Source: Bacteriovoracaceae bacterium (GTDB taxonomy: Bacteria; Bdellovibrionota; Bacteriovoracia; Bacteriovoracales; Bacteriovoracaceae). Taken from it: a stretch of 38,136 nucleotides of DNA. This document shows, piece by piece, positions 1-13,694 of this stretch. Position 1 is the stretch's first letter; every line of letters begins with the position of its first letter. Below the pieces are notes generated by a model that searched no databases, was not told where the DNA came from, and saw only the letters and a list, made by a program, of their open reading frames with translations. The translations under genes were made by a program, and so were the position numbers. The stretch lies in assembly GCA_023137315.1 (NCBI GenBank), contig JAGLPP010000104.1:1-38136 (forward strand), in the 5' to 3' direction.

Positions 1-413
1 GCAAAATCCTTTTTTTGAAAATCGGGCCTCCAGTTGGCAGGTGTTTCATGAGTGGTTTTTGTATGGGCCGTCTTAATGGCCGATAAGAAAAGGACCACAG
101 CAAAAATTCTTTTTAGAGTGTGGGCATCCAGAATGGAGGTGATTTTTCCACCAATTAAAATACCTGTAATTATGGCCGCTCCCATTAAAATAACCAGTTT
201 TGCATCAGGGTGAATTTTTCTGCGGGTAAATTTGGCGACATTTGCCATGCTGTTTATGAGAATTACGCCAAGAGATGTGGAAATCGCCGTTTGGGGTGGA
301 AGATCTGGAAAAATGGTATATAGTACCGGAACGATAATAACTCCTCCACCAAGTCCGAAAAAGGTGGAGACAATACCGACAGCGAAGCCTGTGAGAATCA
401 AAATAAAGATCAT
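1..413 (-). CDS. TauE/SafE-family membrane transporter (partial, 3' end outside window)
   Basis: The minus-strand frame stays open from ATG 413 to the window edge (137 codons, no stop), so this is the N-terminal half of a longer gene. The protein opens with a hydrophobic helix and the glycine-rich motif FGLGGGVIIVP, followed by TAISTSLGVILINS and AKFTRRKIH. These are typical of the TauE/SafE (DUF81) family of anion/organosulfur exporters, which have about eight membrane helices arranged as two repeats. A further hydrophobic segment (LVILMGAAIITGILIGG) follows. AGGA lies about 8 bases upstream of the ATG. It is divergent from the Cu/Zn-type permease, with under 60 bases between the starts. The substrate cannot be read from the sequence. 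Family assignment is fairly sure. Confidence 0.8.
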   Translation of the reverse strand, partial: MIFILILTGFAVGIVSTFFGLGGGVIIVPVLYTIFPDLPPQTAISTSLGVILINSMANVAKFTRRKIHPDAKLVILMGAAIITGILIGGKITSILDAHTLKRIFAVVLFLSAIKTAHTKTTHETPANWRPDFQKKDF

Positions 414-470
414 GTTTTTTTCCTGATTCTGACTTTATCGCAAGTGTCATGGAGAGTAAAAGGAGCATCG

Positions 471-1496
471 GTGGAATTTTTCGTTGTTTTTTGGAAATAC
501 TTAACCACATCCGCACCGTATCTTTTATTTGGTTTCGCAATAGCAGGTATTTTGAAGGCGATTATTCCGGACGATCTTGTTAAAAGGTGGCTTGGGGGCA
601 AGAGTTTTCTTTCTGTTGTACGGGCATCCATTATTGGAATACCACTTCCTCTTTGTTCGTGTTCTGTTGTTCCCACGGCAGTATCGCTGAGGAAAGCGGG
701 AGCAAATAATCCGGCAACTTCGTCGTTTTTGATTTCCACTCCTGAGTCCGGGGTTGATTCCATCAGTATTACCTACGCACTTATGGATCTTCCAATGACA
801 ATTATGAGACCGATTGCTGCTTTTGTGACGGCCTTCTTTGCCGGGGTTCTTCAGTATTTTTTCAATCACGAAACCGAGCTTCCTGAAAATGAACCAGTGA
901 AAAGTCATAATTGTTCACATTGTATGAAACAGCGGAGATTTGGGCGGAAATTAATGGATGGAATTCACTATGCATTTTTTGATTTGCTTGAGGATGTTGC
1001 CCTGTGGCTTACCATTGGTTTGATTATAGGCGGTTTGATTGAATTTTTTGTTCCTGCAAATATCTTTGTCGGGGTAAATGGAATTTTGGGTAAGTTTCTT
1101 ATTCTTTTGATTGGAGTTCCGCTTTATATTTGTGCCAGTGCCTCCACTCCGATAGCGGCCTCTCTTGTGATGAAAGGGCTTTCTCCTGGAAGTGCGATTA
1201 TCTTTCTTCTGGTGGGGCCGGCAACCAATATGTCGAATATTATTGTTTTGCAAAAATATATTGGGAAAAAAGGAATTATTATAAATATTTTTTCAATTTG
1301 TTTTGTGGCGTTTATAATGTCCATGTTGGTGGATTGGATATACATGAGTTTTTCCATTCCGGTGGACTTCAAGATTGCCCGTCACGATCATCACGGGGGA
1401 CTGGAAAGCTGGATTGGAATTATTTGTGCCGTTGTCCTTATCTTTTTTCTTTTGCGTGGAATTTACTACAGGGAGATCAAACCAAGATTGAAATAA
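471..1496 (+). CDS. SO_0444-type Cu/Zn efflux permease (DUF318/ArsP-like)
   Basis: This is an integral membrane permease of about 341 aa. It has two blocks of hydrophobic helices separated by a soluble loop, as in the DUF318/YraQ/ArsP superfamily. The first block carries PLCSCSVVPTAVSLRKAGAN followed by SSFLISTPESGVDSI, which matches the metal-efflux subgroup named after Shewanella SO_0444. The cysteine pair and the loop motif HNCSHC are plausible metal ligands. The second block has the paired signature YICASASTPIAASLVMKG and VGPATNMSN. I chose GTG 471 because AGGAG sits 5 bases before it. An in-frame GTG at 444 is possible but lacks a ribosome site. The stop codon directly abuts the next start, suggesting an operon. 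The transported metal is inferred only from the family. Confidence 0.8.
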   Translation: MEFFVVFWKYLTTSAPYLLFGFAIAGILKAIIPDDLVKRWLGGKSFLSVVRASIIGIPLPLCSCSVVPTAVSLRKAGANNPATSSFLISTPESGVDSISITYALMDLPMTIMRPIAAFVTAFFAGVLQYFFNHETELPENEPVKSHNCSHCMKQRRFGRKLMDGIHYAFFDLLEDVALWLTIGLIIGGLIEFFVPANIFVGVNGILGKFLILLIGVPLYICASASTPIAASLVMKGLSPGSAIIFLLVGPATNMSNIIVLQKYIGKKGIIINIFSICFVAFIMSMLVDWIYMSFSIPVDFKIARHDHHGGLESWIGIICAVVLIFFLLRGIYYREIKPRLK

Positions 1497-2249
1497 ATGA
1501 AAGACGAAAAAAGAAAGCATATTTTTATTACAGGCGGAACGACAGGTATTGGTCTGGCCCTGGCGGAACTCTATTTGAAGGAGGGACACCATGTTGGGAT
1601 TTGCGGACGCGATCTTTCCAAGATACCTGACAGCTTCAAGGATATTTATCCCATGCTTCATTCATTCGAGGTGGATGTCAGGGACATGAAGAAGCTTTCC
1701 ACGACAATCAAAAATTTTTCCAAGGACGGTTTGGATATATTGATTGCCAATGCTGGTATTGGTGATTTTAAAAAAACGGTTCTGCCTGATATGGAGTCTT
1801 CCAGACAGATTTTGGATATTAATGTGTTTGGAGTTTTTAATACTTTTGAGGCCGGCATGGAAGTGATGATTCCAAGGAAAAAAGGTCATCTTGTTGCCAT
1901 GGCATCTGTTGCAGGAATGGTGGGGCTTCCTCGTATTGGTGCTTATAGCGCATCAAAGGCCGCAGTCTTAAAACTTTGTGAATCTTTTGCAATTGATCTT
2001 TCAAGTGTTGGAATTAATGTAACTGCAATAGCCCCTGGTTTTATCGAAACACCTCTTACGAAGTCCAACAATCATCATATGCCGTTTCTTATGAGCGCAG
2101 AAAAGGCCGCTAAAAAAATGAAAAAGGCAATTGAGAGAAAAAGAGTTCTTTATGTCCTTCCTTTCAGAATGAGAATGGTTATGTTGGTTCTTGAGGGGAT
2201 GCCTCGTTTTCTTTACCGTTTTTTCATAAAAATGTTCAGGTTTGAGTAA
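1497..2249 (+). CDS. Short-chain dehydrogenase/reductase (SDR)
   Basis: This 250-aa classical SDR has the Rossmann nucleotide-binding motif TGGTTGIG (residues 12-19), the structural NAG motif (85-87) and a catalytic set of Ser137, Tyr150 and Lys154 (YSASK). It should be an NAD(P)-dependent oxidoreductase acting on an alcohol or carbonyl. The C-terminal 40 residues are basic and hydrophobic (ending PRFLYRFFIKMF), as in SDRs that act on lipid or membrane-associated substrates. Its ATG follows the permease stop with no gap, and the methyltransferase starts 3 bases after its own stop, so all three are probably co-transcribed. The substrate is unknown. The SDR assignment is secure. Confidence 0.85.
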   Translation: MKDEKRKHIFITGGTTGIGLALAELYLKEGHHVGICGRDLSKIPDSFKDIYPMLHSFEVDVRDMKKLSTTIKNFSKDGLDILIANAGIGDFKKTVLPDMESSRQILDINVFGVFNTFEAGMEVMIPRKKGHLVAMASVAGMVGLPRIGAYSASKAAVLKLCESFAIDLSSVGINVTAIAPGFIETPLTKSNNHHMPFLMSAEKAAKKMKKAIERKRVLYVLPFRMRMVMLVLEGMPRFLYRFFIKMFRFE

Positions 2250-2252
2250 AAA

Positions 2253-3059
2253 ATGGGTGGAAAACATTACGATAAATTAATCCTGAATCACTACAAGAAG
2301 GTTGCCGGTTCTTTCGGGCTTCGTTCTTCTTCAACAATGGAGGACCCTTTTGTCCGCAAAAAGGAGATAGAATTCATTATTGAGGAGATTCAAAGACTTT
2401 TTCTGGAATTAAAAAGGGATATTGTGATTCTTGATGCTGGTTGTGGCAACGGTTATACGCTTTCGTGCCTGAAGGAGAGATTTCCAACATTTGTGTTTTA
2501 TGGAGTGGAATTTTCCCCGGAGCTTTGTGAACTTGCCGTATCCAGAAATCTTGAAGGAGTTAAGATTACAAACGGGGATATAAGGGAGAAGGATTTTTTC
2601 AAGGAAACTGTTGATATTGTAATAACTGAAAGAGTTATTATAAATATACTTAATCGCGGTCATCAGGATGATGCTATTGCGAACATTTCTTCAGTTCTTC
2701 CTGATGGCGGGCTTTATGTCATGATTGAAAGTTTTGTAGGGCCCTTGAAGGAACTGGGCGATGCGAGAGATGAGATGTGCCTTGACGAGATAGAAGAGTC
2801 TTATCAGAACAAATACCTTAATGAACCATTTGTTAAGAGAATGGTAAAATACGGGTTAACGGAAAATACTCCTGTCATGCCAAGAAACTATCTTTCGTCC
2901 CATTTTTATCTTACCCGTGTTTTTCATAAAGCAATGCGTCCAGATGGAGGCAAGGTAAAATTCACGAAAATGGTTGATTTTTTTCGTGAGGCAATTCCCC
3001 CTGCTGTTGGAAATTTTTCCCCAATCCTGTTCAGATCGTTTAGAAAAATCTCCAAATAG
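2253..3059 (+). CDS. Class I SAM-dependent methyltransferase
   Basis: This 268-aa protein has the glycine-rich SAM-binding motif DAGCGNG at residues 61-67, followed by GVEFSPELCELA (acidic end of strand beta-2) and then NGDIRE and VDIVITERVIINI as motif II/III equivalents. Between SLLPDGG-like text and the C-terminus it has a long helical insertion (KYLNEPFVKRMV, RNYLSSHFYLTRVFHKAM), seen in small-molecule methyltransferases of the Methyltransf_11/25 type. It starts 3 bases after the SDR stop, so the two may modify one small molecule in sequence, but no pathway is evident. Family is clear, substrate unknown. Confidence 0.8.
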   Translation: MGGKHYDKLILNHYKKVAGSFGLRSSSTMEDPFVRKKEIEFIIEEIQRLFLELKRDIVILDAGCGNGYTLSCLKERFPTFVFYGVEFSPELCELAVSRNLEGVKITNGDIREKDFFKETVDIVITERVIINILNRGHQDDAIANISSVLPDGGLYVMIESFVGPLKELGDARDEMCLDEIEESYQNKYLNEPFVKRMVKYGLTENTPVMPRNYLSSHFYLTRVFHKAMRPDGGKVKFTKMVDFFREAIPPAVGNFSPILFRSFRKISK

Positions 3060-3093
3060 AGGATAAAAAGACAGGATGAAATTGCCATATGTC

Positions 3094-3122
3094 TTGTCTT
3101 GGGGACTTGGTCGTACTAAAAT
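3094..3122 (+). promoter_or_regulatory. Probable sigma-70 promoter of the phosphatase-greB operon
   Basis: TTGTCT (3094-3099), a 17-base spacer and TAAAAT (3117-3122) match the housekeeping consensus at 4/6 and 5/6 positions with optimal spacing. The predicted start site (about 3129) is just upstream of the GGAG and ATG 3140 of the phosphatase gene, giving a very short leader. It also argues against the alternative upstream start at 3089. Confidence 0.5.
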
Positions 3123-3139
3123 TGCGGTTTGGAGCGGAT

Positions 3140-3613
3140 ATGAAAAAGATATTATTTGTTTGCATGGGAAATATCTGTCGTTCACCGGCCGCGGAAGGCG
3201 TGATGCAAAATTTAGTGGCAAGCGAAGGACTTGAGCAAAAAATATATCTGGATTCGGCCGGAACAATCGGCTACCACGTTGGAGAAAGGGCCGATTCCCG
3301 CATGAGAAGTTTTGCTCAAAAAAGGGGAATTGATCTTTTATCAATTTCAAGATCGTTTGATCCAATGGGGGATTTTGAGGAGTTTGATTATATTATTGCC
3401 ATGGATGACTGCAATATGGAAGACCTTCTTAATATGGATGTGGATATGAAATATCGCGAAAAGCTTCATATGATGACGGATTTTTGCAGGACCAGAAAGG
3501 AAAAGAAAGTTCCTGATCCTTATTACGGAGGGGAATGCGGGTTTGATCTGGTTTTGGATATAGTGGAAGATGCATGTAATGGTTTATTGGACAGGGTTAA
3601 AAAAGAGATTTAA
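3140..3613 (+). CDS. Low-molecular-weight protein tyrosine phosphatase
   Basis: The 157-aa product has the LMW-PTP P-loop VCMGNICRSP near the N-terminus (nucleophile Cys8, phosphate-binding Arg14) and the general-acid motif DPYYGG with Asp126. Length and layout match the family. Such enzymes dephosphorylate phosphotyrosine or phosphoarginine, and related proteins serve as arsenate reductases. The DPYY loop favours phosphatase activity. ATG 3140 has GGAG 5-9 bases upstream. An in-frame ATG at 3089 would add 17 residues not expected before the MKKILFVC start and would lie upstream of the predicted promoter. The next gene, greB, begins 2 bases after the stop. The only obvious phosphorylation gene in the window, the Ser/Thr kinase at 36378, is far away, so no partner is implied. 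Confidence 0.88.
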   Translation: MKKILFVCMGNICRSPAAEGVMQNLVASEGLEQKIYLDSAGTIGYHVGERADSRMRSFAQKRGIDLLSISRSFDPMGDFEEFDYIIAMDDCNMEDLLNMDVDMKYREKLHMMTDFCRTRKEKKVPDPYYGGECGFDLVLDIVEDACNGLLDRVKKEI

Positions 3614-3615
3614 TT

Positions 3616-4122
3616 ATGGCAGATGAAAAAAACTATATTACTCCTGATGGATTTAAGAAACTTCAAGACGAGGCTCACTGGTTTGTAACGGTGGAGAGAC
3701 CACGCATTACCGAGATTGTACATCAGGCCGCTTTACTCGGGGATCGTTCCGAGAATGCAGATTATCAATATGGCAAGCTAAGACTTGGTGAGATAGACGG
3801 GCGCATTCAGTTTCTCAATAAGAGAATAGATAGTGCGATAATTGTTGATCCTTCAAAGATAACCACCGATCGTATCCAGTTTGGTGCAACAGTTGTTATT
3901 GAGGATGAAAATGGAATTGGAAAAAATTATGTGATTGTAGGCGCGGATGAGTCTGATGCAAGTAAAGGTCACATTAGCTGGAGGTCACCTGTAGGTCGCG
4001 CTCTTTTAGGCAAAGAGATTGGGGATGTGGTGAGTGTTCGAACTCCAAGGGGTGATGTTGAAATTGAGATTATTGAAGTGAAATATTTGAAAGTTGATAT
4101 TGAGGCCTTTAATGCTGATTGA
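3616..4122 (+). CDS. greB: Transcription elongation factor GreB
   Basis: This 168-aa protein is of the GreA/GreB family, which enters the RNA polymerase secondary channel and stimulates cleavage of backtracked transcripts. The N-terminal coiled coil begins NYITPDGFKKLQDE and carries GDRSENADYQYGK, with the acidic residues expected at the coiled-coil tip. It continues RLGEIDGRIQFLNKRI. These features fit GreB better than GreA. The C-terminal FKBP-like domain includes SWRSPVGRALLGKEIGD. It lies 2 bases after the phosphatase gene and overlaps the DUF6165 gene by 11 bases, indicating one transcript. Assignment is secure; GreB over GreA is fairly sure. Confidence 0.88.
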   Translation: MADEKNYITPDGFKKLQDEAHWFVTVERPRITEIVHQAALLGDRSENADYQYGKLRLGEIDGRIQFLNKRIDSAIIVDPSKITTDRIQFGATVVIEDENGIGKNYVIVGADESDASKGHISWRSPVGRALLGKEIGDVVSVRTPRGDVEIEIIEVKYLKVDIEAFNAD

Positions 4123-4498: not shown

Positions 4499-5674
4499 TT
4501 ATTTTTCATTAAAAAAGATATCCAGGACAATTCCTTCTCTAGTCTTTTTTCCTTTTTTGTAGAAAAATTTTCCTTTGCCGGATGCCGTTGCCCGTCTTCC
4601 AAAATCCAAAAGATATTTATCGTTGTACTTGAGATTAATCTTGAATACTCCATTCTTTTTTAAGCTGGAGAGTTCTCCCTTGTCGGAATGTCCGTTACTA
4701 TTTATGTCCTTCCAGAGAACCAAATCCTTGAATTTTTTGTCCTTGCTGTCGATGACATCGTCAAAATTTGAATCCAATTCGGTAAGTGCGGAAAAACCAT
4801 TGGAGTAATAATCTCCGTCTCCGAAAAGTTGATTTGCACGATAAATACCCTTCTTTGGATTTTTGGGATCAAGTTGTGCCAGAAAAAAACCAACATGATT
4901 CTTTTCGGGCCAATAGGTTTTATCACCGGAACTTCTAAGCAAGGGACTGCTGCCAACAAATTTTGGCCTTTTATCGCCAAAGAAAAGCATCAATGGTGAA
5001 TGGTATCCTCCACAAAAGCCGTCCTGGCCGGGATAGGTGGTAAGAATGTGAATGAATTCCTCTGGATTTCCGTAACGATCAACACCCTTAACGTATTTTA
5101 CGATGTGTTTACCGCCTGGCATGTTACCATTATAGCCGTAGTACTGTGCAGCATTGTCATGTGCTGTATCATCAAAATCCTGAACGCTGCGAACGGAGAG
5201 ATAATGTCTATCACTCTCAGCAATTCCAAGTGATTTCATTTTTATCGTCATATGGTTGGCACGGCATCCGGTTGTGGCCATGAATTTGTTGTGATCGCGA
5301 ATAAAACTGCGTTCCATTTTGTCAGCTTCCGTGAAACTTGTTTTTCTGTAAAAACATCCGCTTGAAACATTTGAACCTTTTTTTGTAAGCTTTCCTGGAA
5401 AACGTAAAATATAACTGGTGCTGCCGCTGCCGGCCTTCTGGCCAATTCTTAATCCAATATAGACGTTTGACTTGGGGTCCAGTGGGTTGGTGGTTCCCCT
5501 GTTATTCGTTCCGTAACATCTTGTTTCCAGTAAAATCCTTGTTCCTCCTCCCGGAGTAGGGTCACTTAATGCAGGTGTCGACATACTGCCCGTGCCATTA
5601 GGTAGTAACGTTGTGGCAAAAGAATTTCCAATGTTAAAGCAGAGCAATATTGAAAACAAATAATTTAAATTCAT
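4499..5674 (-). CDS. Secreted protein with two EF-hand-like calcium loops
   Basis: The 391-aa product starts with a signal peptide (hydrophobic core YLFSILLCFNIG, likely cleavage after NSFA, residue 20). The mature part has four cysteines (about 53, 107, 137, 221) that could form disulfides. Near residues 301-334 are two 12-residue loops with calcium-coordination spacing: D301-N-D-D-I-D-D312 and DINSNGHSDKGE (323-334). They are joined by FKDLVLW, a pairing common in secreted bacterial calcium-binding proteins. ATG 5674 is preceded by GGAGAGAGG; an upstream in-frame ATG at 5725 lies within the preceding gene. It is last in an operon with three prepilin-like genes, so it may be cargo or a tip component. 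I do not recognise the N-terminal 300 residues. Confidence 0.65.
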   Translation of the reverse strand: MNLNYLFSILLCFNIGNSFATTLLPNGTGSMSTPALSDPTPGGGTRILLETRCYGTNNRGTTNPLDPKSNVYIGLRIGQKAGSGSTSYILRFPGKLTKKGSNVSSGCFYRKTSFTEADKMERSFIRDHNKFMATTGCRANHMTIKMKSLGIAESDRHYLSVRSVQDFDDTAHDNAAQYYGYNGNMPGGKHIVKYVKGVDRYGNPEEFIHILTTYPGQDGFCGGYHSPLMLFFGDKRPKFVGSSPLLRSSGDKTYWPEKNHVGFFLAQLDPKNPKKGIYRANQLFGDGDYYSNGFSALTELDSNFDDVIDSKDKKFKDLVLWKDINSNGHSDKGELSSLKKNGVFKINLKYNDKYLLDFGRRATASGKGKFFYKKGKKTREGIVLDIFFNEK

Positions 5675-5684
5675 TCCTCTCTCC

Positions 5685-6686
5685 TTATTTCTGAGTAGGT
5701 TTTTTGTAAAAACTAATTTCCACATCGATCATCTTGCTTGATGTGTTTTTACGTAAAAAGCTTAATTCTTTTACTCTTTTGGCAACCAACCTCTCTTTGA
5801 AGTGGTCTATACCCTTTGAGTAATCAAGAACCCGTCGGTAAAGATCAAATCCATCCTCTGGTTTTTTTTCAGGGACTCTGAGCTGATACTCTACGTACCT
5901 TACCGGAATGACAAAAACCCTTGCCATGGCACCGGCAGATTGGATGCATCTTAAAAAGTTATCCAGTGCTGAATCGGGATTTTCCTTACATTGCGAATTA
6001 GCAGGTTTCCAAATGGAGTCAAATTTTGCCCGTTTTATTGAATTATTCACCACTCCGAGCAAATAAGCATAATCCCTGCTGTTACCGAGAGAGTCGATCA
6101 TTGGTGTGATACCCTGAATTTTTACCAGATTACCGTTTTTCATATGGCCGTTATCGCTAAAAACCTTTCTAAGCTTGCTTGAAGAATAGTTCAAGCTCGG
6201 ACTTGTATTGTAAAAAATAGAAGGTGATTCTAAAATTGCCTTCTTGTACACACGGTTTCCTTTTTTCTCAAAGGTGGACCCATCAAACGCGAAAAAACCA
6301 AAACTGTCCTTGTCTGCTGTAAGATTTATTGCAACAGATTTGCAATAATCCTCAGAGGTAACCTGCCAAAAATAAGGCTTTGCATTTTTTGTACTGATAC
6401 AATGTTCGTTCTTTGTTTCGCTGTCGTTGAATACCCCGATCGATTTTATAAAATTAAAGGATGGATTTGTTTTCATTACATCCTCCACCAATAATTTTCT
6501 AGCGAAGGCCTCACTGATGATTGTGTCTGATTTTAATTCAAGACTCTTGAGATTTTTTGTGACACTGTTGGACAGGTGACTTATTCCGTAGGCTAGTAAT
6601 CCGCTGATTCCCAACGCAATCATTAATTCGGCCATCGAAAAGCCATTGTTTTCTTTTAAAATAATACATCTTTTTATCGACATCAT
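5685..6686 (-). CDS. Prepilin-like minor pilin (PilW/GspJ-like)
   Basis: The 333-aa protein has a type III signal for prepilin peptidase: a short basic leader ending NNG (residue 15), then FSMAELMIALGISGLL, with Glu at mature position 5 and a hydrophobic N-terminal helix. The rest is a globular domain with Cys at about 62, 85 and 165, and no repeats. Size and place after a PilV/GspI-like gene fit a PilW/GspJ-type minor pilin or pseudopilin. Its start overlaps the preceding stop in an ATGA arrangement, so translation is coupled. Minor pilins of this class prime pilus or type II secretion fibres in the inner membrane. Which fibre it belongs to cannot be told here, because no secretion ATPase or platform gene is in the window. 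Confidence 0.75.
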   Translation of the reverse strand: MMSIKRCIILKENNGFSMAELMIALGISGLLAYGISHLSNSVTKNLKSLELKSDTIISEAFARKLLVEDVMKTNPSFNFIKSIGVFNDSETKNEHCISTKNAKPYFWQVTSEDYCKSVAINLTADKDSFGFFAFDGSTFEKKGNRVYKKAILESPSIFYNTSPSLNYSSSKLRKVFSDNGHMKNGNLVKIQGITPMIDSLGNSRDYAYLLGVVNNSIKRAKFDSIWKPANSQCKENPDSALDNFLRCIQSAGAMARVFVIPVRYVEYQLRVPEKKPEDGFDLYRRVLDYSKGIDHFKERLVAKRVKELSFLRKNTSSKMIDVEISFYKKPTQK

Positions 6687-7150
6687 TCACCTGCCAGTAA
6701 CGAAATAATTTTAGGTTCCTTCCAGCTTTTATGGATAACTTTTACTGTCATTGTATAAAGCCCCTTTGAACCTGTGAGCGGTTTTACCACCATCCCGTAT
6801 CTTCCACTTGGACAATTGGGGTTACAATCTTTAACTGGAATCTGATCTCCCTTGGAATTCCATGCCATTGGTAAACCTCCACCCAGGATTGATTCTGCTG
6901 ACTCTGAGCTGTAATCTACCTGTAAAAATTGTGCCCTGGTTGAAAGTGAATCAACTAATTCAATGTGGATATCATTCAACGTAAGATCGGCCTTGCAGGT
7001 ATCCAATTCCTTGAACCAGTATTCAATTCCCAAATAAATTCCTGCTGAAAGAGTTGCCATAATTCCAATGCTGACAAGTGCTTCCACCAACCCGAACCCA
7101 TTTTTGTTATTATGAAATTTTAAATTCATTTTTTGAAACCTCGCTCTCAT
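6683..7150 (-). CDS. Prepilin-like minor pilin (PilV/GspI-like)
   Basis: This 155-aa protein has the leader KNG followed by FGLVEALVSIGIMATLSAG: a prepilin-peptidase site with Glu at mature position 5 and a hydrophobic helix. The small globular part contains a CNPNCPSGRYG segment that might form a disulfide. Its length fits PilV/GspI. Two starts are possible: ATG 7150, which overlaps the upstream stop (ATGA), and ATG 7129, which has GAGG 9 bases upstream and gives a shorter 11-residue leader. The second is attractive, but I kept the longer form. It lies between the giant prepilin and the PilW/GspJ-like gene, overlapping both by 4 bases, so the three products are probably made together. Confidence 0.75.
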   Translation of the reverse strand: MRARFQKMNLKFHNNKNGFGLVEALVSIGIMATLSAGIYLGIEYWFKELDTCKADLTLNDIHIELVDSLSTRAQFLQVDYSSESAESILGGGLPMAWNSKGDQIPVKDCNPNCPSGRYGMVVKPLTGSKGLYTMTVKVIHKSWKEPKIISLLAGE

Positions 7151-9960
7151 AGTTCGTAGTTCTCATTAAGAATTAAAAAATAATAATTCAGGGCCCGTCC
7201 TGAAGGTTTGCATGTTGTCATAATACTGTCGGAATCCTTCATCCCACAAAGAGGATTGAAACTTGTCCATTTGAACGGCTCGGCCCTTTCCATCAGATAT
7301 GCAGGAGTACACTTTCTCATGCGATCCATTTCAGCTGCAGATGTTGGATTCCAAAGCGGGGAGGATTTGTTGATTTTACAATTTGATAATGTGTTAATTT
7401 CCCCGGTTTTGTCCAAATATGTTCTGGCAGATGAATGAAAAATGTTCATCCACACAATGTCATTATCAGAACCCTCTATCTCCAGCTTATCCACAATAAA
7501 GGAGCCAATCATCGTCAATTTTCCGGTTCTTTTTTTAATTTTTAAATACCGGCAAATCAAAAAACCCATGACGTGATTTGCCGTTGAGTTGATGATGCAA
7601 CGATCAAGTACACCGTAAGTATGAAAATTATCATGATTATTACCATCTATAATCAGCTTGTTTTTCACCTTGGCATCACTTGAATTGAAAACATGGCCAT
7701 AAGGGGCATTATAGTCCGTCTTGGTAGGAGCTGGAACAAACTGGTTTTCACCGTCAATTGGACGATAATTCCATGAAGTGAAACTTGATTCGGAATAGTC
7801 AGCATTATAGGTGGACGAACTGCCTCCTCCTGTTGAACCGCTTCCTGAAGTTTCAACATCGCTGCACATAGTGTAAAAATCGGGAGGGTTGGATGAAAGA
7901 ACCTCAATTTCCTCATCATCCAAACTTATGGATTTATTATCAAGAGTATTCCATGAAATGGTGCTGTAATTTTTTTTCACTTGATATCCACCCTTGAACT
8001 CAAAATCCATTTTATGGTGGAAAAATTTTGGCCCTCCGTCGCTAATGACGTCCGCTCCTGTGATTCCATCTGTGAGAAAGGAGTGAGCGCTTAACTCAAA
8101 GTTCGGAGTGAAATACCAATTTGTATCAGGGTAGGTGTCGTTGACATCGTTATTTTTAAAGACAATATCAAGTTTTAATTGAGATGCCCCGACCCCTTCT
8201 TTTAGTGAAATTTCAATTGTTGGTCTGGAATTGAACTCTTCAATTTTACGGTTAATTTTTTCGGATGGAGGGTATATTCTTTTGATTTTTTTACAATCAT
8301 ATTTCCCACTTTCCTCATTTAATGTGCAACTTTCATAGATAACCAATGTGGTGTTAATGGTTTTACTGTCAACAGTTTTGCTGACCTCCTTGTCGGTTTT
8401 ATCTTCCTCCAAATCCTTGGTGGTTCCATCATCCTTCTCGGATATAAGTTTGGTTTTAGTGGAGGCACTTAGGGTTTTTGTATCAAATATCTTTTCAACA
8501 GTTTTCCCGTCCTTTTTTCCATAAAGTGTTCGTGTATAAACCAGCTTGGTTTTAGTGGATTTTAAGTCATCCTTGATCCAGTCGGTATCCATTGGGACAA
8601 CGGCACCTGCGGCATCAATATCAAAAATTGCCGTTCTGTTTTTTCCAAGGGAAAAGGATATCGGATATATTGAAATCCCTTTTTCGTTTGTTCTTTTTTT
8701 CCAATTTACACTGATATGAAAATTTGAAACATTTTTCGCTCCACCGTCATTCCGGTATTCCAAATAATCTTCATCTTTATAAGTGTGAATAACGTCGGTA
8801 AATTCGTTCAATTTGGTCAATCCCATCAAATACTTGTTTGTTCCTCTTTTTTTAATAATCAATCTGGAATCACGGGTTTTGGAGGCATCATATTTTCTAT
8901 TTTGATAATCGATACACTTATTCATGTTTACAGTTGAAACAGGTTTTGAATTATAGGCAAAAAGACTTGTCAGGGCGTCTTCGTAAGCGACACGGTATAT
9001 TCCTCCCTTGAGTCCTTTAAATCCCTCGTACCTTGATTGAAATGTTGTATTTTTTCCGCCAGGTGTACTGGGGGTGAACATTTTAACATTCTTGCTCGAA
9101 TGGGTTTTCAAATCACCGGTCATATAGACCCTGTCCTTCAATAAAATTTTTTCGTCGGAAGGAGAATTTGAAGTGCCGGGGATAACAATGTCTCCATTTA
9201 CAAAAACAGGTGAATAAAAAATAATTCCACTTTTCGTTGACGATAGTTGATTATCATCTTTTGTGGGATTAATGCTGCTGCCGATTAAAAGGTTTTTGTT
9301 AAGAGAAAGTACATTCTGATTAATTTGACGAGGGAAGAAAATTACTTCGGAATATGCCTTACCCAGTATCTCGGTTTTCTTGTAGAGGTTCAGGTTGATC
9401 TTTACCAGAATATCGTTACCGTGCGAGTTTGGTTCACTTACGTATTCGACCTGGAGACGATCCCCCCTCAGGCCAAAACCTCCACTTCTCATCATTGTGT
9501 ACAGGGGATGGCCAGGAGTGATATTGCTTTTTTTGATGTTGAAACTCATCTTTCTCAGGCCAATCTTGCTGTTGCCTGCGTTATAAAATGATTCCAATTC
9601 CCCGCCATTATAACGATACTTGTTTTTGAATTCATTATCTGTTGCGTCCGAGATCAACAAACGTTCGAGATTTCCGCTATCCGTTATGCCGATACAGTTC
9701 TTTTTCTCGATTCCAGTTGAGAGATCAATGCATTTTCTTTCTTTTAGGATGTAATTGGCGAAAACCATGCCACCTTTCAAAGAGTCGGTGTATTTGGTTT
9801 CTTTACGCATCTTATGTTGAACAAATTTTTTGGTTTGCCAAACTTGTTGTGAGAAATAAGTGACTGTTCCAACGAGTGTTCCCCCGATAATCAATACTTG
9901 AATCAGAGAAAACCCACGGTTTCCCAATCCGGAAAAACCCCTTTTAAAGTCCTTAAACAT
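7147..9960 (-). CDS. Giant prepilin-like protein (937 aa), GspK/PilX-like position
   Basis: The N-terminus MFKDFKRGFSGLGNRG ends in a Gly16 prepilin-peptidase site followed by FSLIQVLIIGGTLVGTVTYF. Mature position 5, almost always Glu, is Gln here. Usual minor pilins are about 150-350 residues, and this one is 937. The extracytoplasmic part is rich in beta-forming stretches, Lys/Asp/Thr segments (around 480-530) and a Ser/Gly linker (SGSGSTGGGSSS) near residue 720 that probably separates two domains. It starts the operon, has a strong AGGGGGG ribosome site, and is followed by PilV- and PilW-like genes. In type II systems GspK is likewise the largest pseudopilin, lacks Glu5 and caps the fibre; a similar capping role here is inference. 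I recognise no enzymatic domain. Confidence 0.7.
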   Translation of the reverse strand: MFKDFKRGFSGLGNRGFSLIQVLIIGGTLVGTVTYFSQQVWQTKKFVQHKMRKETKYTDSLKGGMVFANYILKERKCIDLSTGIEKKNCIGITDSGNLERLLISDATDNEFKNKYRYNGGELESFYNAGNSKIGLRKMSFNIKKSNITPGHPLYTMMRSGGFGLRGDRLQVEYVSEPNSHGNDILVKINLNLYKKTEILGKAYSEVIFFPRQINQNVLSLNKNLLIGSSINPTKDDNQLSSTKSGIIFYSPVFVNGDIVIPGTSNSPSDEKILLKDRVYMTGDLKTHSSKNVKMFTPSTPGGKNTTFQSRYEGFKGLKGGIYRVAYEDALTSLFAYNSKPVSTVNMNKCIDYQNRKYDASKTRDSRLIIKKRGTNKYLMGLTKLNEFTDVIHTYKDEDYLEYRNDGGAKNVSNFHISVNWKKRTNEKGISIYPISFSLGKNRTAIFDIDAAGAVVPMDTDWIKDDLKSTKTKLVYTRTLYGKKDGKTVEKIFDTKTLSASTKTKLISEKDDGTTKDLEEDKTDKEVSKTVDSKTINTTLVIYESCTLNEESGKYDCKKIKRIYPPSEKINRKIEEFNSRPTIEISLKEGVGASQLKLDIVFKNNDVNDTYPDTNWYFTPNFELSAHSFLTDGITGADVISDGGPKFFHHKMDFEFKGGYQVKKNYSTISWNTLDNKSISLDDEEIEVLSSNPPDFYTMCSDVETSGSGSTGGGSSSTYNADYSESSFTSWNYRPIDGENQFVPAPTKTDYNAPYGHVFNSSDAKVKNKLIIDGNNHDNFHTYGVLDRCIINSTANHVMGFLICRYLKIKKRTGKLTMIGSFIVDKLEIEGSDNDIVWMNIFHSSARTYLDKTGEINTLSNCKINKSSPLWNPTSAAEMDRMRKCTPAYLMERAEPFKWTSFNPLCGMKDSDSIMTTCKPSGRALNYYFLILNENYEL

Positions 9961-10020
9961 CTGATGCCCCCCTAAACCTCAAAATACGTAGTTTAACACA
10001 GTATCCTGACAAAAAAAAAA

Positions 10021-10038
10021 TGTGGCAACAATGTCACA
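10021..10038. promoter_or_regulatory. Imperfect palindrome upstream of the giant prepilin gene
   Basis: TGTGGCAACAATGTCACA is an imperfect dyad (TGTGRCA arms) about 60-80 bases upstream of the prepilin start at 9960, in the 282-base divergent gap 9961-10242. It looks like a Crp/Fnr-family half-site pair, but the spacing between TGTGG and TCACA is 8, not the 6 of Crp. Function is speculative. Confidence 0.25.
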
Positions 10039-10059
10039 TATTTTAACATCGCCTGGGTT

Positions 10060-10087
10060 CAATAAAAAACTTTCAACCTTTTTATTG
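10060..10087. repeat. Perfect 9-bp inverted repeat in the divergent gap
   Basis: CAATAAAAA (10060-10068) and TTTTTATTG (10079-10087) are exact inverted copies around a 10-base loop. The site lies between the divergent prepilin and methyltransferase genes, so it is not needed as a terminator and may be an operator. The rest of 9961-10242 is AT-rich; the best plus-strand promoter guess (TTGAAA at 10096, TATAAC at 10121) has a long 19-base spacer and is weak. Confidence 0.3.
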
Positions 10088-10242
10088 GTAACTAATTGAA
10101 AACCTACATTTTATTTAATTTATAACTGACAATATTTTCTGGCATATTAATTGAGGAATTGTGTATTGGATTTGAATTTTCCCAAACCATCTGGTAATTT
10201 TCTTTTCAGGTTGATCGAAACATTTAATTATGAGGTGTTGGT

Positions 10243-11049
10243 ATGACAGTAGGTAGTGAAATTTCAGTGGAGTTGAAGCATAAGTTGTATGAGAAATCGG
10301 TTCAAAATCCGGATGGTGATATTGATTTTATTAACAAGGAATACAGAAAAATTTACGGCAAAAAACCCATGACTCTCAGAGAGGATTTTGGTGGAACAGG
10401 GTATATGGCGTGTGAATGGGTCAAGCTGGGGCCGGAGCATCGTGCATGGGCAATTGATCTGGACAATGAACCGATTAAGTATGGTATTGAAAATCATTAT
10501 GCCAGACTATTGGAAGGCGAGAAGGAAAGGATGAAATATCTTGAGGCAAATGTCATGGATGACCACAATATGAGATTGGATGTGGTCTGTGCCTTTAATT
10601 TCAGCTATTACATATTCAAAAAGCGCTCAAAACTCCTGGAATATTTCAAGAGTGTTAGAAAATCAATTGCGAAAGAGGGAATGTTTGTAATGGATCTTTT
10701 TGGCGGTTCGGAATGTTTCACTCCTCAGGAGGAGGAAACGGAATATGAGGATTTTTCCTACTTTTGGGATCTTGATAAATATAATCCACTCACCAATGAG
10801 TGTTTGTATTATATACATTTTGAAACCCATGAAGATGGCAAGCGTTATGAGAAGGCATTTACCTATGACTGGCGCATGTGGACAGCTTATGAGTTGGTTG
10901 AAATCCTTGAAGATGCCGGATTTTCCACAGTAAAAACCTATTGGGAAGGCGAAGATGAGGAAGATGGAACTGGTGATGGTGAATTTTTTGAAACAACAGA
11001 AGTTGAAAATTGTGAGTCTTGGGTATCTTATATAGTCGCAATTCCTTAG
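10243..11049 (+). CDS. Class I SAM-dependent methyltransferase-like protein
   Basis: This 268-aa protein has a SAM-binding segment TLREDFGGTGYMACEWVKLG (residues 44-63), in which the usual D-x-G-x-G-x-G appears as EDFGGTG. Next come AIDLDNEPIKYG (acidic residue after beta-2), LEANVMD (motif II) and VVCAFNFSYYIFKKR (motif IV). A glycine-containing FVMDLFGGSE strand and a very acidic C-terminal stretch (EGEDEEDGTGDGEFFE) follow. GAGG precedes the ATG. It stands alone, divergent from the prepilin operon and convergent with the nusB-side gene, which it overlaps by 4 bases at the 3' ends. The substrate is not evident. Confidence 0.72.
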   Translation: MTVGSEISVELKHKLYEKSVQNPDGDIDFINKEYRKIYGKKPMTLREDFGGTGYMACEWVKLGPEHRAWAIDLDNEPIKYGIENHYARLLEGEKERMKYLEANVMDDHNMRLDVVCAFNFSYYIFKKRSKLLEYFKSVRKSIAKEGMFVMDLFGGSECFTPQEEETEYEDFSYFWDLDKYNPLTNECLYYIHFETHEDGKRYEKAFTYDWRMWTAYELVEILEDAGFSTVKTYWEGEDEEDGTGDGEFFETTEVENCESWVSYIVAIP

Positions 11050-11465
11050 GCTTCCAGGTCAATTGTTTTGAATTTGAAGTTTGGAAATCTTTTTTCCATT
11101 CTTTCTTGATGTTTTTGCTTTGAAGAATCTATAAGCATAATTGAGTTGCGTTTACTTTTTTTAAGTTTGAGTACAAGGTTCATTAATTCTTCAAGATCGT
11201 TATCCGTCTTGTCCGTATCTGCCAGCATGTATGCAACAAAAAACGGGTTGCCAAAACTCTCGGATACAAAAAAGTTTTTTGTATCGGGAACACTTATCTT
11301 GCTGTCTTGGGTCATTCTCTCGTAGTGTCTGGATAAAAGGCCGTCCAAAAAATAGTCCAGAGAGTGAAAAGGTAATGGACGTGATAGTAATTTTTCGTTG
11401 GTAATCCAGAAAACACCGATGACATCTGGTTTTAAATTTAATTGGAGTTTTTCCACTTGTTTCAT
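11046..11465 (-). CDS. Unknown protein translationally coupled to nusB
   Basis: The 139-aa protein is not recognised. It has alternating short strands and helices: VIGVFWITNEK, a middle helix SLDYFLDGLLSRHYERM, the hydrophobic strand NPFFVAYMLADTDKTD, a helix ELMNLVLKLKKSKR, then SIMLIDSSKQKHQERM. There is no signal peptide or membrane segment. Its ATG overlaps the nusB stop as ATGA, so it is probably translated by ribosomes finishing nusB, and it ends the minus-strand housekeeping cluster. The strand-helix order suggests a small alpha/beta fold, but no motif supports a function. Confidence 0.6.
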   Translation of the reverse strand: MKQVEKLQLNLKPDVIGVFWITNEKLLSRPLPFHSLDYFLDGLLSRHYERMTQDSKISVPDTKNFFVSESFGNPFFVAYMLADTDKTDNDLEELMNLVLKLKKSKRNSIMLIDSSKQKHQERMEKRFPNFKFKTIDLEA

Positions 11466-11929
11466 TTTTGGACTCTGATTTTTTTGGCAATGCTGTCCAT
11501 AATACCGTTGACGAATGAAAACGATTCATTCTTTCCATATTTACGTGCCATATTTACAGATTCATTAATCACAACTTTGACAGGGGTTTTCTTGATATAT
11601 TTCATTTCAGTTACACCAAGAAGCAGTATTGTTAAATCAACCTTGTCTACATTTTCAAGCTTCCATCCTTTGAGGTGTGATTTGATGATTTCCATAACCT
11701 CCGCGTAGTTTTCGATAGTATGACTTATAAGCTTTTTGGCAAAAACCAACATGTTTTCATTGAGGTTGTTATCCAGATGGTCAGGGTCTTCTTCGGTATA
11801 GCTTTTATGAAATACGGTAAGCGCATCTTCAATTTCTTCCATTGGAATTTCTATTTTGGAAGACACCATCTGATATAAAAATTTCAGTGCATATTCTCTG
11901 GCAGCAGTAGGTTTTTGGTTGGATATCAT
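11462..11929 (-). CDS. nusB: Transcription antitermination factor NusB
   Basis: This 155-aa all-helical protein opens with AAREYALKFLYQM and ends with TPVKVVINESVNMARKYGKN then FVNGIMDSIAKKI, the signature C-terminal half of NusB. Together with NusE (ribosomal protein S10) NusB binds boxA RNA and supports antitermination of rRNA operons. It starts 10 bases after the nrdR stop with an AAGGAAG ribosome site. Adjacency to nrdR is common in bacteria, but the riboflavin genes often found between nrdR and nusB are absent here. Confidence 0.93.
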   Translation of the reverse strand: MISNQKPTAAREYALKFLYQMVSSKIEIPMEEIEDALTVFHKSYTEEDPDHLDNNLNENMLVFAKKLISHTIENYAEVMEIIKSHLKGWKLENVDKVDLTILLLGVTEMKYIKKTPVKVVINESVNMARKYGKNESFSFVNGIMDSIAKKIRVQK

Positions 11930-11939
11930 GGTACTTCCT

Positions 11940-12431
11940 TTAGGTCATCCTGACAGGCATGTGGCCATGGTTGACGCTGAATGAGATTTTTTTGTTTTTC
12001 AGGCCCTCGGCAAATTCATCAATATCCTTATAATTCCAATAGAACGAGGCAAATCTGACATAGGAGACGGGGTCCAGTTTGTATAGATTTTCCATAACGA
12101 TTTCACCGACGATATTTGCAGAGACTTCCTTTTCCCCTTTTTCAATCAGACTTTTTTCAACATTTTTTATGATATTCGTTATGTCATCGGTGGAAATACC
12201 TCTTTTATGACAAGCCTTTTTGAGACCCTTGATAATTTTTTCATGTTTATAATTTTCCCGACGGCCATCATTTTTTACTATGTATGGAAGTTGGATATGG
12301 ATGGACTCGTATGTGGTGAAACGTTTTTCACAGGATTCACATTTTCGTCTTCGTCTGACAGTATCTCCTTCCTGGAGTAGTCTTGAATCGATGACCTTTG
12401 TTTCTGGTGCGTTACAGATAGGGCAATACAC
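11940..12431 (-). CDS. nrdR: Transcriptional repressor NrdR
   Basis: This 163-aa repressor of ribonucleotide reductase genes has an N-terminal zinc ribbon (Cys3, Cys6, Cys31, Cys34 in CPIC and CESC) with the conserved DSR and RRRRKCE segments. An ATP-cone domain follows (from VKNDGRRENYKHEKIIKGLKKAC), which senses ATP/dATP. It normally binds NrdR boxes upstream of nrd operons; none is evident nearby. The start codon is GTG, 5 bases after AGGAG. It sits between glyA and nusB, both within about 12 bases, in the same transcript. Assignment is secure. Confidence 0.95.
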   Translation of the reverse strand: MYCPICNAPETKVIDSRLLQEGDTVRRRRKCESCEKRFTTYESIHIQLPYIVKNDGRRENYKHEKIIKGLKKACHKRGISTDDITNIIKNVEKSLIEKGEKEVSANIVGEIVMENLYKLDPVSYVRFASFYWNYKDIDEFAEGLKNKKISFSVNHGHMPVRMT

Positions 12432-12443
12432 AATATCTCCTGT

Positions 12444-13694
12444 CTAATAAACTGGAAATTCCTTGCAAAGAGCAAGTACTTCGTTTCGTGTTTGTGAAAT
12501 AAAGTGTTCATTATCGTTGTTCTTTAGAACGGAAACGATCCACTCGGCGATTTGTGCCATATGGTTTTCCTCTAGCCCTCTTGTTGTGATAGCTGGTGTT
12601 CCAAGTCTGATACCGGACGTAATGAATGGGGAGCGTTTGTCTCCTGGAATCATGTTCTTATTGCATGTAATACCGGCCGCTTCCAGAAATCTCTCGGATT
12701 TTTTTCCGGACAGTCCAACTGAGTCGGTTTTTCCAAGCATAAGGTGATTATCAGTTCCACCTGAAACTATTTCCATGCCATTTTTTATAAGGTTTTCTGA
12801 CAATGCCTTGGCATTTTTCAGAACTTGTTTTTGATAAGTTGTAAATTCTGGTTGTAAGGCTTCATGGAATGCTACTGCTTTGGCAGCAATGACGTGTTCA
12901 AGTGGTCCACCCTGAATACCTGGAAACATATTGAAGTTGATATCCTTGGCCAGATCTTCACGATGTGTGAGAATTAATCCACCTCGTGGGCCTCTTAGCG
13001 TTTTATGTGTTGTTGAAGTTACAAAGTCTGCGATTCCAACAGGGGTGGGATGAAGTCCTGCTGCAACAAGTCCTGCAATATGGGCCATGTCGACGAGAAG
13101 ATAGGCATCAACACTGTCGGCGATCTCTCTGAATTTTTTAAAATCAATGGTTCTTGAATAGGCGCTGGCACCGGCCACAATCATTTTTGGTTTTTCTTTT
13201 TGTGCAAGATCGGCGAGGGCCTCATAGTCAATGGTTTCTGTTTCCATATTAAGTCCGTATGGAACCACATTAAACAGTTTTCCGGAAAAGTTGACCGGTG
13301 ATCCGTGGGTAAGATGTCCTCCTTCAGCGAGGTTCATTCCCAAAATTTTATCGCCGGGTTTTAAAACACAAAAGTAGGCCCCCATATTTGCCTGTGAGCC
13401 TGAGTGTGGTTGAACGTTGGCAAACTCGGCACCAAAAAGTTTTTTGGCGCGATCTATGGCAAGTTGTTCCACTTCATCAATAAATTCACATCCACCATAA
13501 TAACGTTTTTTAGGATAGCCTTCGGCATATTTGTTGGTAAGAACCGAACCTTGAGTTTGCATGACTGCAGGGGAAGTGTAATTTTCTGAAGCGATCAGCT
13601 CTAATCCTTCTTCCTGCCTGGTATGTTCCTTGTTTATAAGATCAAGGATTTCCATGTCCATCTTTTTAAGGGATGTAGCATTTGGATGAAACAT
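12444..13694 (-). CDS. glyA: Serine hydroxymethyltransferase
   Basis: This 416-aa PLP enzyme interconverts serine plus tetrahydrofolate with glycine plus methylene-tetrahydrofolate, supplying one-carbon units. The Schiff-base lysine is Lys231 in [14 protein letters not shown]. Asp202 and His205 (VDMAHIAGL) contact the cofactor, and LIASENY plus [11 protein letters not shown] are conserved SHMT motifs. Full length, with the expected C-terminus. It follows fabF (17-base gap) and precedes nrdR (12-base gap), linking folate metabolism with the fatty-acid cluster. Confidence 0.96.

Follow-up and report, generated by a model that had tools for sequence, protein, structure and literature searches.

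A giant prepilin lacking Glu5 heads a conserved four-gene cassette of Bdellovibrionota that resembles a pilus tip complex

Introduction

What is assembled from an operon whose first gene encodes a 937-aa prepilin without glutamate at position 5 of the mature protein (Glu5)? Such an operon lies in a 38,136-nt window, the whole stretch of DNA analysed here, which is contig C7 of a 3.1-Mb draft genome of a Bacteriovoracaceae bacterium (phylum Bdellovibrionota). Type IV filaments carry at their tip a complex whose cap is a subunit without Glu5 (PMC10191384). GspK-family pilins are larger than the others and also lack this residue (PMC5207764), as does PilX of Myxococcus xanthus, which has been modelled as the carrier of PilY1 (PMC7541494). 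A largest subunit without Glu5 is read as the one that comes first and caps the tip (PMC10191384; PMC5207764). Type IVa and type IVb pilus genes are required for predation (PMC6561027, PMC5430801), and no characterisation of the tip proteins of bdellovibrio-like predators was found in the literature that we searched.

Results

The operon spans positions 4499-9960 on the minus strand. It opens with the giant prepilin (7147..9960; delimited from the list of open reading frames and from homologues), followed by a 155-aa prepilin with Glu5 (6683..7150) and a 333-aa prepilin with Glu5 (5685..6686), with 4-nt overlaps at both junctions among the three genes. The fourth gene, encoding a secreted protein, ends at 4499, and its open reading frame begins at 5725 (408 aa). 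Its start is more likely Met18, at 5674, which lies 10 nt past the stop codon of the 333-aa gene and behind a good ribosome-binding site, AAGGAGAG. From this start, gene 4 (4499..5674) encodes 391 aa, of which MNLNYLFSILLCFNIGNSFA reads by eye as a clean type I signal peptide. The neighbouring genes are divergent upstream and convergent downstream, so the four-gene operon is a self-contained unit. The intergenic region 9961..10242, shared with a divergent gene for a 268-aa methyltransferase-like protein, presumably contains the promoter; the match to promoter consensus found there was weak and not above chance.

The open reading frames and prepilin-peptidase sites reported in the initial annotation were confirmed, with the Gln5 giant heading an overlapping series. 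The cleavage site of the giant reads NRG^FSLIQVLIIGG, with Gln at mature position 5; those of the 155-aa and 333-aa proteins read NKNG^FGLVEALVS and ENNG^FSMAELMIA, respectively, both with Glu5. The 155-aa protein scores above the cut-off of the Pfam N_methyl model (24.3 vs 21.2 bits). The 333-aa protein falls just under it (20.1) and passes that of TIGR02532 (17.5 vs 16.3 bits); both assignments also draw on family alignments. No pilin model of Pfam or NCBIfam matched the giant of the window.

A profile built from five giants and run over 369 genomes of the phylum detected the giant in 68 genomes, representing 33 of 182 genera and at least eight families; in one genus, it was present in 22 of 24 species, usually in two copies. 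These homologues comprise 847-1169 aa, share about 24% mean identity, and are larger than the partner prepilins (142-233 and 318-379 aa). A scan of named genomes with one alignment returned two relatives only, from a 'Bacteriovoracaceae bacterium' and a 'Bacteriovorax stolpii' MAG, so confinement of the family to this phylum cannot be claimed; a further alignment contained no stretch of sufficient conservation for such a scan. The two named relatives place the genome among bdellovibrio-like bacteria.

The gene order noted in the initial annotation is conserved. Twenty distinct loci were read over their full length. In all 20, the four genes are adjacent and point in the same direction, with the small Glu5 prepilin next after the giant and the medium one behind it; the partner gene usually comes last (K-I-J-partner) and sometimes first (partner-K-I-J). 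Since these loci were picked for the presence of the giant, the strong claim concerns the constant company of the four genes rather than its frequency. Conversely, of the 88 strong hits to gene 4, 80 are no more than 10 kb away from one of the listed giant hits, and divergence between pairs of loci correlates among the four proteins (r 0.43-0.74; 0 of 2000 permutations). No filament assembly gene adjoins the cassette in any locus read.

Position 5 was compared in the 44 distinct giants whose N-terminus is intact. All of these start in the prepilin manner, with a hydrophobic helix behind G^ (Ala in one). None has Glu5; the residue is Gln in 17, Phe in 6, Met in 6, Ile in 3, and others in the remainder. 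Because Gln recurs in 17 of these homologues and Glu in none, Gln5 in the window is no sequencing slip. Glu5 is present in 19/19 small and 21/21 medium partner prepilins, and the GFxxxE N_methyl motif of type IVa pilus (T4aP) and type II secretion system (T2SS) pilins in 17/19 and 17/17 members, respectively. At the level of sequence, absence of Glu5 from the giant combined with its presence in the partners is the pattern that marks tip-capping minor pilins of the K type (GspK/PilX). This signature, initially noticed in a single operon, is thus maintained over at least eight families, and the giant does have homologues with the same N-terminal peptidase site. By analogy, the earlier proposal that the giant caps a fibre has good support, and a cap role is what we infer for it.

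The identity of the two smaller prepilins is less specific. The 155-aa family shares a conserved motif, L-P-x-A-W ... C ... C-x-G-R-x-G. The small and medium sets matched no GspI, GspJ, PilV or PilW family, only N_methyl models. Profile alignment with the pilins of the genome's own T2SS locus covers 25-35 N-terminal columns only, and that of the giant with the K-like protein of this locus 25. The I-, J- and K-like proteins of the T2SS locus also miss their own Pfam families, which weakens the comparison by family homology. For the 155-aa protein, the AlphaFold model has a pLDDT of 51, and a fold search of the PDB with this model gave no significant match. Of the PilV/GspI- and PilW/GspJ-like partners originally proposed, the fixed order after the giant therefore holds, but a family match is lacking; the likeness is only an analogy, drawn from size, order and the N-terminal motif.

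The giant consists of a transmembrane/alpha1 helix (residues ~17-40), a conserved N-terminal region (~40-400, with conserved Cys 77, 89 and 349), a variable middle (~400-690) and, at the C-terminus, a conserved domain of about 240 residues that is rich in Cys (~700-937; Cys 788, 803, 861 and 884). This pattern of conservation makes the previously suggested division into two domains reasonable, but the Ser/Gly linker on which it had partly been based, located at the start or edge of the C-terminal domain, is peculiar to the copy in the window. A Pfam Serglycin match was rejected as reflecting this linker and not homology. Whole-length PDB hits and SMC/Rad50 hits of the giants were likewise dismissed as coiled-coil noise from the variable middle; judging by the SMC/Rad50 noise, this part appears coiled-coil-like in some relatives. 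Among the matches listed, no Pfam or NCBIfam family, GspK included, and no recognisable grafted domain was found in the giants, and PDB profile searches with the N- and C-terminal domains produced no fold match. The AlphaFold model of the giant, built from an alignment of three sequences only, has a pLDDT of 31. It includes short regular strands at residues 246-286 and 768-838, a hint of a beta-solenoid in a model whose confidence is too low for a claim.

Gene 4 had been overlooked in the initial annotation, both as a secreted protein with a domain like the self-processing module (SPM) and as a constant member of the cassette. It has an N-terminal domain, and its C-terminal half is an SPM-like EF-hand domain that matches the FrpC self-processing module (6sjw, residues 44-166; E 1.4e-23), EF-hand loops included. 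The FrpC module folds on calcium, severs the Asp-Pro bond with which it begins and couples the released Asp to lysine residues (PMC7078468). In the cassette proteins, the scissile Asp-Pro is replaced by Ser-Pro in 24/24 partner rows (22 distinct), as it is in 18/18 more distant SPM-like rows from the phylum, and the first calcium loop, which follows the Pro, is gone, with later EF-hand-like loops remaining. With Ser-Pro at the scissile position in every member, self-cleavage is therefore not expected. From these sequence features, we expect the C-terminal half to be a calcium-folded binding domain and not a protease-ligase. It further differs from the FrpC module in belonging to a non-RTX protein with a type I signal peptide. 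PilY1 (PF05567) was matched neither in the operon nor in any of 116 relatives, control genomes likewise giving no match.

The genome carries a T4aP machine (contig C101), a T2SS (contig C71) and further Tad-like T2SSE/T2SSF-type genes outside these loci (C158, C204 and others). Assembly genes thus do co-occur with the cassette, as the initial annotation had suggested checking, but both T4aP and GspD are near-universal in the phylum, which makes the co-occurrence uninformative: PilT-family ATPases are found in 366 of the 369 genomes and GspD-type secretins nearly throughout. The contrast of 366 genomes with 68 for the giant suggests that the cassette is accessory to a near-universal machine. 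A separate series of G, H, I, J and K-like subunits, the last of 455 aa, is encoded at the T2SS locus on C71, so that the cassette does not simply represent the T2SS tip. Further pilin sets of the same genome, on C141, C8 and C144, are as expected of alternative tips. Two of them include another Gln5 prepilin, of 332 aa (C141) and 617 aa (C8), each with two Glu5 pilins nearby; a Hint domain is found at the C-terminus of the 617-aa protein. Among relatives, Hint-type domains recur on prepilins without Glu5 that have conserved neighbours of their own.

Discussion

The proteins of the cassette resemble a tip complex such as a retractable fibre on the cell surface would carry; the tip location, the host machine and any role in contact with prey are inferred. 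The reading that we favour, and hold somewhat more probable than not, is an accessory, interchangeable type IV pilus tip complex in which gene 4 takes a PilY1-like role. Prepilin peptidase would cleave the 937-aa giant, and the lack of Glu5 would restrict this protein to the first, distal position. Beneath it, the two Glu5 prepilins would connect it with the major pilin and prime assembly. The gene 4 protein would be exported by Sec, fold upon binding calcium and dock on the giant in the manner of PilY1 on PilX, so that this protein and the large ectodomain of the giant would be what the fibre shows to surfaces or other cells. An optional cassette on a common machine fits the three tip clusters of M. 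xanthus, which are served by one machine (PMC7541494), and the four Kil Tips (PMC12075869). Counting against a type IV pilus tip, the operon encodes no H/FimU-like subunit; the K-like gene comes first, its usual place being last (PMC5207764); the AlphaFold models of the giant and the 155-aa protein give no fold support; and the co-occurrence of T4aP and GspD cannot separate the machines.

The main rival would keep the tip but change the machine: the cassette could form an alternative T2SS pseudopilus tip, with the giant as a GspK-like, cargo-selecting cap and gene 4 as its dedicated substrate. The GspK family offers the closest signature, being large and without Glu5 (PMC5207764), PilY1 has been described as analogous to the substrates of a T2SS (PMC7541494), and a T2SS cluster and near-universal GspD-type secretins are at hand. 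However, the C71 locus is already equipped with G to K-like subunits of its own. To our knowledge, swappable tip sets have been described for type IV pili and not for T2SS, and we regard this alternative as unlikely, if a serious competitor.

A Tad-type pilus tip, the bdellovibrio counterpart of Myxococcus KilLMN, seems improbable. Like the cassette pilins, KilLMN form a set of three in which one subunit is large, a genome encodes several such sets, and structural prediction has pointed to a tip in Bdellovibrio (PMC12075869); the extra T2SSE/T2SSF-type genes of our genome look Tad-like as well. Yet the N_methyl motif of the two smaller subunits, GFxxxE, is that of T4aP and T2SS pilins, no TadE, TadF or TadG match turned up in the small and medium sets or in the matches listed for the giants, and no Tad gene adjoins the cassette. 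We give slightly less credence still to proteins that never enter a filament and form a membrane-anchored complex through their N-terminal helices. The absence of a linked filament gene would agree with such a complex, but conserved cleavage motifs in all three prepilins and the strict division at position 5 are most readily explained by pilin assembly.

Compared with known systems, the preferred pilus tip complex shares with GspI-GspJ-GspK a set of three minor pilins in which the largest lacks Glu5 and its partners have it. It differs in that the giant is much larger than GspK (the K-like protein of this genome included), has no detectable sequence in common with the T2SS-locus K-like protein past the N-terminal helix, is encoded first, and is joined by an exported fourth partner. 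With the FimU-PilVWX-PilY1 tip of T4aP, it has in common a cap without Glu5, a calcium-binding non-pilin partner with a type I signal peptide and several alternative sets per genome, whereas it has no FimU, its partner is an SPM-like EF-hand protein instead of PilY1, and its cap is much larger. The Kil Tips (KilL/KilM/KilN) likewise combine three subunits, one of them distal and very large, multiple sets and a predatory context, but they are TadE/F/G-like, whereas the cassette subunits have T4aP/T2SS-type motifs. Enlarged tip pilins with extra domains, or modular pilins, are also represented by PilA-PilB-PilC of Streptococcus sanguinis; unlike these, the cassette giants have no recognisable grafted domain. 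Our search of the literature found no paper describing the four-gene cassette. The cassette is real, conserved and of a known general kind; as a combination, it is apparently undescribed.

In gene 4, an SPM-type fold appears to have been recruited as a pilin partner with loss of the cleavage residue. A more speculative idea, to which we assign a low probability, is that Bdellovibrionota swap pilus tips with protein-processing folds at the business end, an SPM-fold partner here and a Hint-fused K-like prepilin in another cassette of this genome, and that calcium-gated folding or self-processing would lock the tip onto the contacted cell or release it. The phylum includes bacteria-eating bacteria, and the cassette names concrete candidates for proteins with which bdellovibrio-like predators may recognise or hold their prey.

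Genes flanking the giant-prepilin cassette

The four-gene cassette (window 4499-9960, minus strand) is flanked by two 268-aa methyltransferase-like proteins, one on each side (2253-3059 and 10243-11049, both on the plus strand), which differ from each other. Between the one at 2253-3059 and the operon come two more genes, one resembling a low-molecular-weight phosphatase (3089-3613) and the other GreA (3616-4122). These flanking genes were named by eye.

Further prepilin sets and a recurrent Hint-like domain

Elsewhere in the same genome, contig C8 (L028; 9402-11252, minus strand, and 11309-13434, plus strand) encodes a Gln5 prepilin of 617 aa that carries a Hint/Vint domain at its C-terminus (GCFDSNTMIYMMDG...TSEHPFLT...HFILT); its neighbors are a 302-aa membrane-anchored protein and two E5 pilins. 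This Hint-like domain recurs in proteins of other genera (L176, L178, L179, L181, L183), several of which have a prepilin N-terminus lacking Glu5 and are adjoined by a membrane protein of about 300 aa, another prepilin without Glu5, and an E5 pilin. A third K-like set of this genome, on contig C141 (L026; 3704-6627), consists of a 332-aa Gln5 prepilin and a pair of E5 prepilins (290 and 305 aa) encoded divergently to it. Two pilin-like proteins of 225 and 212 aa on contig C144 (L029; 6651-7924, minus strand), with the N-termini GSTLLEMVLAIGL and GTNLMELMVAGLL, possibly represent a fourth set.

SPM-like domains across the phylum

Domains resembling SPM, the self-processing module of FrpC, are scattered across the phylum, often within lipoprotein-like or multidomain secreted proteins (L146-L163). 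At one site apart from the giant cassette (L163), a 918-aa SPM-domain protein (37-2793, plus strand) is immediately adjoined by a Glu5 pilin (2799-3311, minus strand), a further pilin-SPM association. Because all the scattered SPM-like domains read carry Ser-Pro at the position of the FrpC Asp-Pro, their sequences suggest that the SPM family includes a large non-cleaving branch.
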